Below, piece after piece: positions 19,000 through 21,088 of a DNA stretch of 21,273 nt. The notes under the pieces were generated by a model that saw only the letters and a program-made list of their open reading frames with translations, had not been told where the DNA came from and searched no databases. Position 1 is the first letter of the stretch. Every line of letters starts with the position of its first letter. The DNA comes from a virus. The DNA is taken from the IMG/VR virus record IMGVR_UViG_3300036770_001316, positions 1-21,273 of that record. One strand, given 5' to 3'. A program made the translations under genes and the position numbers.

Positions 19000-19338
19000 T
19001 CACGCATTGGTTCCGCTCTTGGCGATGGGCTCGATTACGACCGTTTCCTCGCGGATGTCCTGCTCGATGCGCTCGCGCTGGCCTAGCAGCTGCTTGCCGA
19101 GCCAGATGAGCATGGCGACGTTGCCTTCCTTCGCCTTCTCGTACTGCCACCGGCGGATAGAAGCGCGAATCTTGTGGCCGCCGATCGTTAGCGCGGCGCG
19201 AGTGTCCGCGCGCGCGCGAAGTGTGCGGGAGGTGCAACCGACGACGGCCGCGATCTCATCCTGCGTTAGACCCATTGAGGCAAGCGCTTCGACTTGCCGA
19301 AGGTCGACCGGCTTTACCGACCCTTTAGGCCGAGCCAT
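19000..19338 (-). CDS. terS: small terminase subunit
   Basis: The DNA-recognition part of the packaging machine. The 112-residue product from ATG 19338 is preferred over a longer frame because GGAGGA lies about eight bases upstream. The N-terminus (MARPKGSVKPVDLRQVEALA then SMGLTQDEIAAVVGCTSRTL) contains a helix-turn-helix at about 13-40. The centre carries AKEGNVAMLIWLGKQLLGQR, typical of phage small terminases with N-terminal HTH. It overlaps the mom-like gene end by 14 bases and lies just upstream of terL. Confidence 0.85.
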   Translation of the reverse strand: MARPKGSVKPVDLRQVEALASMGLTQDEIAAVVGCTSRTLRARADTRAALTIGGHKIRASIRRWQYEKAKEGNVAMLIWLGKQLLGQRERIEQDIREETVVIEPIAKSGTNA

Positions 19339-20011
19339 TTCGATATTCCTCCGATGATTGAAGCGCCGGGGTCGGAGTTGCACCGCCCCTTCCCGACTGG
19401 AAGTCGGTCGTGCCGCTTGCAGCACTTCCGGCGCGTTTTGGGTAAGGCCTTGCGAGCGGCGTGATTCTAGCGCGCATCTCATCATCTAGCGGCATGAGGT
19501 ATTTGTGCTTCCAAGAAATCGGAGCCCGATCAAGATTCTTGATCGAACCGAACTTCGCAGATGCCGTTCGCTTGTGCATCCGAACGCCATTTACGACGAC
19601 CTCACTTTGTGGACTCGATGTGCCTGTATAGATCCAGTTCGACGCTTGATATACAGATCCTACATGACCTCTGCTCGGATCTGCATAACTAATGCACAGA
19701 CGGAGATCGCTGAGTTTTTTGAGCATCAAGAACGCGATTGCCATGATTCGGCTTACTGGTGTTGAATGCGTCCGAAGTGCTATTCGTACAAGTTCACATA
19801 TCTCCGTCTGGTTGCAACCAAACGATTTTCCGATGTTGTGATTTGCTCCCCTGCCAAATATCACAACGCCGACGAACTCCTTGTTTTCCCATACCCCGAT
19901 TTTTACCAGCTTGCCGCTCGGCATACATCGACTGTAATGCCACCTTTCGACCGCGAACTTCGCGGCCTCAAACGAGCACCAGTCGAGCTTGAGGTCATGG
20001 CGTAAACTCAT
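19325..20011 (-). CDS. mom: Mom-like DNA adenine modification protein
   Basis: The 228-residue protein resembles phage Mu Mom, a GNAT-fold enzyme that converts adenine to an N6-carbamoylmethyl form so phage DNA resists restriction. Seen: ERWHYSRCMPSGK, KEFVGVVIFGRGANHNIG, ELVRIALRTHSTPVSRIMAI and SYADPSRGHVGSVYQASNWI, a pattern typical of the family. Start ATG 20011 overlaps the ParB-like stop by 17 bases. No good ribosome site is visible, so coupling is likely. Three 60-base lines I counted inside are 45-47% GC against 63% in the capsid gene, a sign of transfer. The last 36 residues are odd: residues about 193-217 are encoded by a tRNA-like sequence, and the end overlaps terS. The core (to about 190) looks complete. 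Confidence 0.8.
   Translation of the reverse strand: MSLRHDLKLDWCSFEAAKFAVERWHYSRCMPSGKLVKIGVWENKEFVGVVIFGRGANHNIGKSFGCNQTEICELVRIALRTHSTPVSRIMAIAFLMLKKLSDLRLCISYADPSRGHVGSVYQASNWIYTGTSSPQSEVVVNGVRMHKRTASAKFGSIKNLDRAPISWKHKYLMPLDDEMRARITPLARPYPKRAGSAASGTTDFQSGRGGATPTPALQSSEEYRNGSA
19363..19434 (-). tRNA. tRNA-like cloverleaf, Gly anticodon TCC, nested in mom-like 3' end
   Basis: The minus strand reads GCGCCGG at the 5' end and CCGGCGC at the 3' end (7 bp), 72 bases apart. D-arm: GTGC-TGCAAGCG-GCAC. Anticodon arm: ACCGA-CTTCCAG-TCGGG, four paired positions with a terminal mismatch, anticodon TCC (Gly). Variable loop AAGG. T-arm: GGCGG-TGCAACT-CCGAC, one G-A mismatch, with a T-loop close to TTCRANY. 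One extra base lies between T-stem and acceptor, position 8 is A rather than T, and CCA is not encoded. It may be a degenerate or unusual phage tRNA, a remnant, or a structured packaging or attachment site. Confidence 0.5.
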
Positions 20012-20483
20012 GGTCGCATTCCGGGCATCGAACCTTTGCCTTCTCGTCTAGCCTGCCCTGCTCGTCCTCCGATGCCGGCGAGAAGTCAGGCACGGCAAGC
20101 GCCGCGATTTCCGCATCGTTGAAGCCCGTAGCCTTTGCCAGCTCCTCGTCCTCAATCTGGAGCGCGGCAAGCGTCTGCGCCAGCGCGTCGTCGTCCCACT
20201 CCGCAAGCTCCGCGGTACGGTTGTCCGCGATCGCATAGGCGGTCGCCTCCGCGCCCTTGAGTGACGTTCGGACGATCGTCACCTCTGGCCAGCCCAGCGC
20301 CTTCGCAGCCATGAGCGTGCCGTTGCCGGCTCGCACGATGCCATCCGCGTCCACGACGATCGGCTTCTGCTGGCCGAAGCGCGACAGGCTCGCCTTGATC
20401 GCGTCAAGGTTCTTCTCGCCGTGCCTGCGGACGTTCGCGGGATCGAACTGCACCGAGCCGATGGGTACGCGTTCCGTCTTCAT
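19995..20483 (-). CDS. ParB-like (ParB/Srx fold) protein
   Basis: The start is ATG at 20483, which overlaps the methyltransferase stop (ATGA). A longer frame from 20543 is inside that gene. The 162 residues begin MKTERVPIGSVQFDPANVRR followed by IKASLSRFGQQKPIVV, then VRAGNGTLMAAKALGW (the ParB box-II-like motif) and YAIADNRTAELAEWDDDALA, the standard phage ParB N-terminal-domain arrangement. The C-terminus has CPECDHEF, half a zinc ribbon. Proteins of this type are often encoded beside phage DNA-modification genes, as here beside the Mom-like gene. The biochemical role is not established from sequence. Nuclease or nucleotide-binding activity are possible. Confidence 0.8.
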   Translation of the reverse strand: MKTERVPIGSVQFDPANVRRHGEKNLDAIKASLSRFGQQKPIVVDADGIVRAGNGTLMAAKALGWPEVTIVRTSLKGAEATAYAIADNRTAELAEWDDDALAQTLAALQIEDEELAKATGFNDAEIAALAVPDFSPASEDEQGRLDEKAKVRCPECDHEFTP

Positions 20484-21088
20484 GCGTTGACTCCAAGCAC
20501 CGCGCGAGCCTTCTCGACCAGCCCGCTGTCCCGATGGACCCACCAGTCCTCGATATGCGCCTGGATGATCTCGTCATCGGTCTGCATATTCACCACGATG
20601 TCGGCCACGCGGACGTAGCCGCTCCACTCCATGAAGCTCCGCATCATGTCGCGGCGCAGGATGCCTCGCTCGCCGTCGCGGTACGCGTCATGCTCGACGC
20701 AGGCAATGCGGAAGCGGATGCGGTCAAGCGGCATCCGAAGCAACACGCGCGCCGTCAGGTCTGGCGGCTCGAGGTCGAGCGACAGGAAATCGACCCATCG
20801 GAACTCGTCGGACGCAAGCCGCAGCCATTGTGCCTCGTAGTCGATGTCCGTCGCGTCGGCGCGGTAGATGTTGTCCTTGGCGCGCTGCTCGCGCAGCTGC
20901 CTGTCGTACTCGATGTCGGACAGCAGGCCGCGCCAGCCGAAGCCGCGCTCGAGTACCACGGTGTTGCTGATCTGCTCGGGATGACCTGCGCCGATGTCGA
21001 AGAACGTCCCGCCGGTCTTGCGGTCGAGCGTCTGCCACACGAAGCGGTCCTGTCCCAGCTGGGATTTCCATCGCGGGTCGGTTGTCAT
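20480..21088 (-). CDS. FkbM-family-like SAM methyltransferase
   Basis: The 202-residue protein starts at ATG 21088 with AGGAG six bases upstream. It shows the FkbM-type pattern: SQLGQDRFVWQTL at the N-terminus, motif I TFFDIGAGHP (28-37), SNTVVLERGFGWRGLLSDIE, and WVDFLSLDLEPPDL as the later acidic strand motif. Members methylate small molecules or sugars at oxygen. The substrate here is unknown. It is separated by 57 bases from the preceding partial gene and overlaps the ParB-like gene by four bases. A role in modifying phage DNA is unlikely by family, so glycan or host-metabolite methylation is more plausible. Confidence 0.75.
   Translation of the reverse strand: MTTDPRWKSQLGQDRFVWQTLDRKTGGTFFDIGAGHPEQISNTVVLERGFGWRGLLSDIEYDRQLREQRAKDNIYRADATDIDYEAQWLRLASDEFRWVDFLSLDLEPPDLTARVLLRMPLDRIRFRIACVEHDAYRDGERGILRRDMMRSFMEWSGYVRVADIVVNMQTDDEIIQAHIEDWWVHRDSGLVEKARAVLGVNA

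Follow-up and report, generated by a model that had tools for sequence, protein, structure and literature searches.

The window analysed here is the whole of a 21,273-base virus record (IMGVR_UViG_3300036770_001316), and the RNA element described below lies on its minus strand, which also encodes mom and terS. The mom-like gene (19325..20011, minus strand, 228 aa), recognised by its open reading frame and profile matches, comes directly after a ParB-like gene (19995..20495, minus strand; phrog_620, E 1.7e-40) and is followed by a terS-like gene (19000..19338, minus strand; phrog_309 terminase small subunit, E 4.7e-5), which is downstream context and outside the system; the large terminase gene is on the minus strand as well. 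A ParB-like/nuclease gene also precedes mom in loci L001, L002 and L003, from Microbacterium, Arthrobacter and Enterococcus phages, and ParB-like plus mom is a recurrent two-gene unit, with one gene in between in L002. The protein encoded at 20480-21088 (minus strand) resembles FkbM-type methyltransferases by eye (FDIGAG, LDLEP) and has no Pfam or PHROG match.

Judged by its profile matches, the gene that the first-pass annotation called mom-like is a true Mom. PF25680 matches residues 7-192, the Mom core (19993..19436, minus strand), with an E-value of 2.8e-43 (148.4 bits against a cut-off of 27.1), and phrog_1384 matches with an E-value of 1.9e-53. The structural counterpart is phage Mu Mom (PDB 8bv8), and four near-invariant residues correspond between the two proteins: S87 to S124 of Mu, D111 to D149, H25 to H58 and R76 to R111. 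The inactive Mu crystal form 8bv8 has a mutation at S124, the serine kept here as S87. AlphaFold2 predicts the core of the window protein with pLDDT over 90 and a disordered tail with pLDDT of about 50; apart from Mom itself, the folds closest to the model belong to CoA-dependent acetyltransferases, so acyl-CoA donors are conceivable on fold alone. From about residue 193 to the end at 19325, Mom is coded by the tRNA-like sequence and the nucleotides after it.

Anatomy of the RNA and evidence for its structure

The cloverleaf begins two bases beyond the last base of the Mom core (residue 192, base 19436). As delimited by a covariance model and covariation, it is a Mom-associated tRNA-Gly(UCC)-like RNA of 76 nt (19359..19434, minus strand), from G1 at 19434 to the position of A76 at 19359. 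The 5' strand of its acceptor stem, GCGCCGG (19428..19434), starts within the Arg codon of the conserved PYPKR at the end of the Mom core, and forms 7 bp with the 3' strand CCGGCGC (19363..19369). The D arm, GTGC-TGCAAGCG-GCAC (19410..19425), has a loop without G18G19. In the anticodon arm, ACCGA-CTTCCAG-TCGGG (19392..19408), the inner 4 bp pair and the outer position is an A.G mismatch; the anticodon is UCC (19401-19399), and U33 is present. The T arm, GGCGG-TGCAACT-CCG(A)CC (19370..19387), has U54-G55-C56 in place of the usual U-U-C and a bulged A in its stem (CCG-A-CC, 19370-19375), which may be a recognition mark for Mom or an antideterminant for EF-Tu. The discriminator U73 and a terminal UCA (19359..19362) give a 3' end of UUCA rather than UCCA, so CCA must come from trimming and addition. 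Directly after the tRNA 3' end is GGAGG (19348..19352, minus strand), the likely terS ribosome-binding site. The cloverleaf that the first-pass annotation placed in the 3' end of mom at 19363-19434 is therefore this element from G1 to C72, without U73 and the 3' trinucleotide; that annotation was also correct that a phage tRNA could overlap a coding gene and that the frame continues into terS, since the mom frame (20011..19325) is open through the whole RNA and its stop at 19325 lies inside terS (19338..19000).

Evidence for an RNA from the window sequence taken alone is weak and suggestive at most. ARAGORN, a check that the first-pass annotation had proposed, reported no tRNA at the element, and Rfam had no meaningful match to it, whether searched at the gathering threshold or at relaxed ones. 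Its single-sequence fold has a z-score of -2.29, with 7 of 200 shuffles as good.

It is comparison with relatives that confirms the RNA, placing it far beyond chance. A Mom protein search of viral contigs yielded 54 loci, and nearly all of the close kin have a cloverleaf at the same place whose stem sequences differ yet pair, with acceptor strands such as GCGCCGG/CCGGCGC, GCGCATC/GATGCGC, GCGTACA/TGTACGC and GCGGATG/CATCCGC. We aligned 62 RNAs, the window copy included, from loci reached through Mom similarity (alignment A4, fitted to a covariance model). Of the stem cells, 97.2% are paired in this alignment, compared with 69.7% in shuffles, and for 19 of the 21 pairs one or more sequences have a change on both sides. 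The covariation score of 0.656 compares with 0.141 in shuffles, and 0 of 500 shuffles reach 0.656. Sliding the partners by 1-3 columns abolishes the covariation signal. The acceptor stem has 99.8% of its cells paired and two-sided changes at 5 of 7 pairs. Covariation was found in alignment A3 too. The covariance model built from relatives scores the window element, itself one of 28 training rows, at 84.7 bits (E about 1e-18).

The model that gathered the 62 rows had been trained on sequences selected by pattern, and the set may under-sample variants without the fixed bases. As a guard against a possible preference of this model for the Gly type, we used a strict cloverleaf scan without sequence constraint. 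Beside Mom, at 103 non-redundant loci, it found 27 cloverleaves with a glycine anticodon (NCC) and 1 other, where about 0.1 are expected from shuffles; it found none in the 347 kb of these loci that lie away from Mom. These results speak against a large sampling bias in the 62-row set. A few Mom-linked copies, and only a few, are called by ARAGORN.

Association with Mom and arrangement of the loci

The link between the RNA and Mom holds when approached from the RNA side. The 3' half of the RNA was converted into an 18-base pattern and scanned over viral contigs without reference to Mom, giving at least 120 stretches, of which 80 listed loci were analysed. The Mom profile used here was limited to the protein core, since columns of the tRNA-encoded tail would make the link circular. 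Among the 80 listed of at least 120 stretches, 76 have a same-strand Mom core, 73 of them within about 60 bases, and a stricter Mom profile that omits upstream-type loci likewise gives 76. Three of the four misses lie within about 300 bases of a sequence end, and one has no acceptor partner. The latter, a T-arm/acceptor motif at L116:9843-9871 (minus strand) with no Mom core nearby, is possibly a decayed copy. The RNA model matches beside Mom in 36 of 50 viral and phage sources including the window (35 of 49 without it) and in 31 of 64 bacterial-genome contigs, with no match away from Mom in about 536 kb. Pfam independently calls Mom beside upstream-type RNAs (L109, 8.7e-41; L099, 2.6e-12; L236, 4.4e-57). 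In L092, L079 and L120 there is a pair of Mom-like genes, either tandem or close to each other, and one gene of the pair has the tRNA.

In a tree built from 106 Mom proteins, the 61 with a linked tRNA are dispersed over Chloroflexota, Bacillota, Bacteroidota, Planctomycetota, Acidobacteriota, Myxococcota, Pseudomonadota and phages; tRNA presence needs 12 state changes on this tree, at least 5 of them forced by well-supported branches. No such RNA was found near many other Mom loci, including those of phiEf11, Paenibacillus, Yersinia, Pseudonocardiaceae and Mu-like phages. A check of phiEf11 for a hidden tRNA gave no model match, and by eye just a terminator-like hairpin. Because Mu and many other Mom loci have no linked RNA, Mom does not always depend on one.

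Gene neighbours other than Mom vary between loci while Mom is constant, which bears on the suggestions that the element is an attachment-site or integration remnant, or a structured packaging site beside terS. tRNA genes are common att sites, and terS is indeed the next gene in the window. A remnant would not be expected to covary in both arms as this RNA does, its two halves being maintained by selection, and the element follows Mom and not terS: the genes next to it in Arthrobacter and Microbacterium phages are not terminase genes. We give these readings almost no probability.

The position of the RNA relative to the Mom frame is variable. In 44 of the 62 loci, the window among them, the Mom frame is open across the RNA; in 7 it ends within the RNA and in 4 ahead of it. 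Another 5 loci have the RNA upstream of Mom, and in the other 2 it lies on the strand opposite to Mom. L004 has its copy beyond the Mom stop codon. L001 (3151-3225, minus strand) and L042 (3095-3168, minus strand) each have a near-standard tRNA-Gly directly downstream of Mom and opposite to its strand. Annotated tRNA-Gly genes also adjoin Mom in Salinibacter phage B2_17, where the tRNA gene follows the Mom stop on the same strand, and in Microbacterium phage Dropshot, where it is on the opposite strand; both add to the arrangements that this association takes. In a set of loci the tRNA is just 5' of Mom (L071, L088, L092, L098, L099, L101, L102, L109, L112, L123, L126, L130, L132, L138, L236, L237 and L239). 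There the Mom frame is open back through the tRNA, mostly with no ATG between CCA and the Mom core and often with an ATG in the D loop or anticodon stem, so translation and tRNA processing of one transcript would be mutually exclusive.

These arrangements decide whether the sequence is conserved for its protein product, the C-terminal tail of Mom, with the cloverleaf a coincidence. The window and its close kin do read it as a similar peptide, GG-x-x-PT-x-x-L, and a constant tail reading frame was apparent at first; it did not hold across loci. Where the Mom frame runs through, the T-arm is translated in differing frames, as GG-x-x-PT in many loci and as AVQLRP or DPDAP in others, so no one tail peptide is conserved. 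Elsewhere the T-arm lies past the stop, or the RNA lies upstream of Mom or on the opposite strand, and the tail is predicted at a pLDDT of about 50. The first-pass annotation had named rejection by both scanners, together with amino acids conserved without pairing, as the outcome that would count against the RNA; relatives instead pair by compensatory change, with the peptide in different frames or unread. The covariation and frame changes refute the protein-level reading, whose probability we put at practically nil, and the best reading of the tail is that it is a by-product of the overlap. Nor is a tRNA-derived extension fused onto Mom specifically supported, because in other loci the tRNA follows the Mom stop, precedes Mom or lies on the other strand.

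Glycine identity and decoding features

Identity bases were counted in the 62 loci reached via the Mom protein and not in the pattern-selected loci, where the pattern had fixed CGCTCCA and the T-stem. G1, C2, G71, C72 and C36 are present in 62 of 62 of these Mom-linked RNAs, and G3, C70, U73 and C35 in 61; the window copy has the full set (G1-C72, C2-G71, G3-C70, U73, C35 and C36). For E. coli GlyRS, base changes reduce charging 11- to 43-fold at pair 1, 5- to 10-fold at pair 2, 105- to 1500-fold at C35 and 21- to 41-fold at C36, and U73 is the kingdom-specific discriminator (PMC9908026).

The features used in decoding have fared differently. U33 is present in 23 of the 62 RNAs and absent in 39, the T-loop starts with the normal UUC in 24 and with UGC in 20, the T-stem has a bulged A in 53, and the D region is too short for a normal D arm in about 16. 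Only 10 combine U33, a D-region GG and a TTCRA T-loop. The anticodons are ACC (29), UCC (26) and CCC (6), with no GCC: position 34 is A, U or C and never G, though GCC is a standard bacterial glycine anticodon, and this absence may reflect selection against decoding the common GGC/GGU codons. To judge from these counts, the tRNA is of glycine type throughout, with the bases read by the synthetase fixed and the features read by the ribosome decayed. The window copy alone is less clearly non-decoding than many relatives because it retains U33 and a D arm, although its lack of GG, its T-loop TGCAACT and its bulged T-stem leave it short of the standard set for a translational tRNA.

Phages often carry tRNAs, and the element might be an ordinary translational tRNA-Gly that sits beside mom by chance, supplying codons or replacing host tRNAs that defence systems have cleaved. 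Some copies (those of L029, L001 and L042) have a fully standard appearance, and the few ARAGORN calls would fit this. The retention of GlyRS bases alongside the frequent loss of U33, ACC as the commonest anticodon, a T-stem bulge in most copies and loss of the D arm in a subset make it very unlikely, and a bystander would not adjoin a Mom core in 76 of the 80 independent motif matches listed (of at least 120).

A second alternative is that the RNA is a tRNA-like structure acting in cis in the mom mRNA, never or only incidentally free, that controls mom or terS by binding Mom or GlyRS, or that serves as a processing signal between mom and the next gene. In most loci it shares a strand with the Mom frame and overlaps it, in loci of the upstream type that frame seemingly begins inside the RNA, and mom of Mu is already controlled through mRNA structure by Com (PMC6483171). 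The conserved C35, C36 and U73 and the CCA encoded in 40 of 62 copies fit charging and not cutting alone, a tRNA serving only in processing would not have to be glycine, and the opposite-strand copies (L001 and L042) and the copy past the stop (L004) are hard to reconcile with control in cis. We regard such a role as unlikely.

A probable glycyl donor for Mom and its meaning

The product of Mu Mom is alpha-N-(deoxyribofuranosylpurin-6-yl)glycinamide (Swinton et al. 1983, as cited in PMC3874153), and the title of Silva et al. 2023 (bioRxiv 10.1101/2023.03.24.534169), as cited in PMC12707154 (ref. 435), names charged tRNA in Mu Mom DNA modification. Use of charged tRNA by Mom is prior art, and the enzyme belongs to a known family. 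What the first-pass annotation missed is the glycine link, between the glycine-derived group that Mom places on adenine and a tRNA of glycine type. A glycine modification, together with a tRNA that is always of glycine type and keeps synthetase recognition but sheds ribosome recognition, leads us to propose that the RNA is Mom's glycyl donor. On comparative sequence grounds the element is probably a tRNA-Gly that is dedicated to Mom and not to translation, and that mom itself encodes in cis.

In the mechanism we envisage, the mom transcript would be translated into Mom and could also be cleaved at the tRNA ends by RNase P, 3' trimming and CCA repair, which would free the tRNA. Host GlyRS would charge the freed tRNA, in which all known bacterial GlyRS identity bases are kept. 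EF-Tu and the ribosome would use it poorly or never, given the loss across the family of U33, G18G19, the normal T-loop and the unbulged T-stem, and at times of the whole D arm, and its glycyl-tRNA would be set aside. Mom, with its GNAT fold and the conserved active-site serine of Mu, would transfer the glycyl group to adenine of the phage DNA. The resulting N6-glycyl-adenine would become N6-carbamoylmethyl-adenine (the glycinamide) by an N-to-N shift via a five-membered ring; the two are isomers, so acyl transfer followed by this shift would yield the product without another cofactor. The modified phage DNA would withstand restriction enzymes; restriction resistance of Mom-modified DNA is known for Mu. 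If this mechanism is general, Mom genes without a linked RNA must use host tRNA-Gly.

Several known systems resemble parts of this one. Mu Mom (PDB 8bv8) shares the enzyme family, the active-site serine (Mu S124, S87 here) and the glycine-derived DNA mark, but the Mu-like phage D108 has no tRNA beside mom, whereas here a specialised tRNA is part of the mom locus. Staphylococcal tRNA-Gly for the FemX/A/B cell-wall bridges keeps GlyRS charging while its D-loop GG (G18G19) is replaced, its T-stem is changed and its EF-Tu binding is weak (PMC4052509). Compared by sequence features only, Fem-type and Mom-linked RNAs are comparable: they show the same kind of drift, in a tRNA-Gly reserved for a non-ribosomal transferase, as we propose for Mom. 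The staphylococcal tRNAs come from separate chromosomal genes and serve peptidoglycan, whereas those described here are in or beside the enzyme gene and would serve DNA modification, and the Mom-linked tRNAs decay further, with no U33, no D arm and A34. The tRNA-like structures of plant viruses also place a tRNA mimic within messenger RNA, but the Mom-linked RNA is a true cloverleaf of glycine type, often with CCA, in dsDNA phages and bacteria; the Tymo_tRNA-like family (RF00233) scores 13.1 bits on the window against a gathering threshold of 40, which is chance level. Metazoan mitochondrial D-armless tRNAs have lost the D arm, kept the acceptor and anticodon arms and retained decoding; the Mom-linked ones have lost decoding features too. 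Our literature search returned no paper describing a Mom-linked tRNA, although the Silva et al. 2023 preprint, known by title, may mention linked tRNAs, and a cis-encoded, decoding-incompetent tRNA-Gly in an enzyme's own gene may be new.

Genomes alone thus point to the source of Mom's glycine-like group, otherwise a matter for biochemistry. The RNA model (R1) is a search handle for Mom systems and for tRNAs overlooked by annotation tools, and the predictions apply to cultured phages: Arthrobacter phage BarretLemon, Salinibacter phage B2_17 and the Microbacterium Appavirus phages. Beyond the window, it is probable that there is a widespread class of tRNAs outside translation, in phages and several bacterial phyla, that lie in or beside the gene of the enzyme and serve solely as glycyl donors for DNA modification. 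If so, the first tRNAs of bacterial systems to lack a D arm and U33 would belong to this class, with the synthetase identity bases still under strong selection. In these RNAs evolution appears to have separated two jobs of a tRNA, with the bases read by the synthetase fixed and those read by the ribosome decaying, making the Mom family a natural experiment on minimal chargeable tRNAs.
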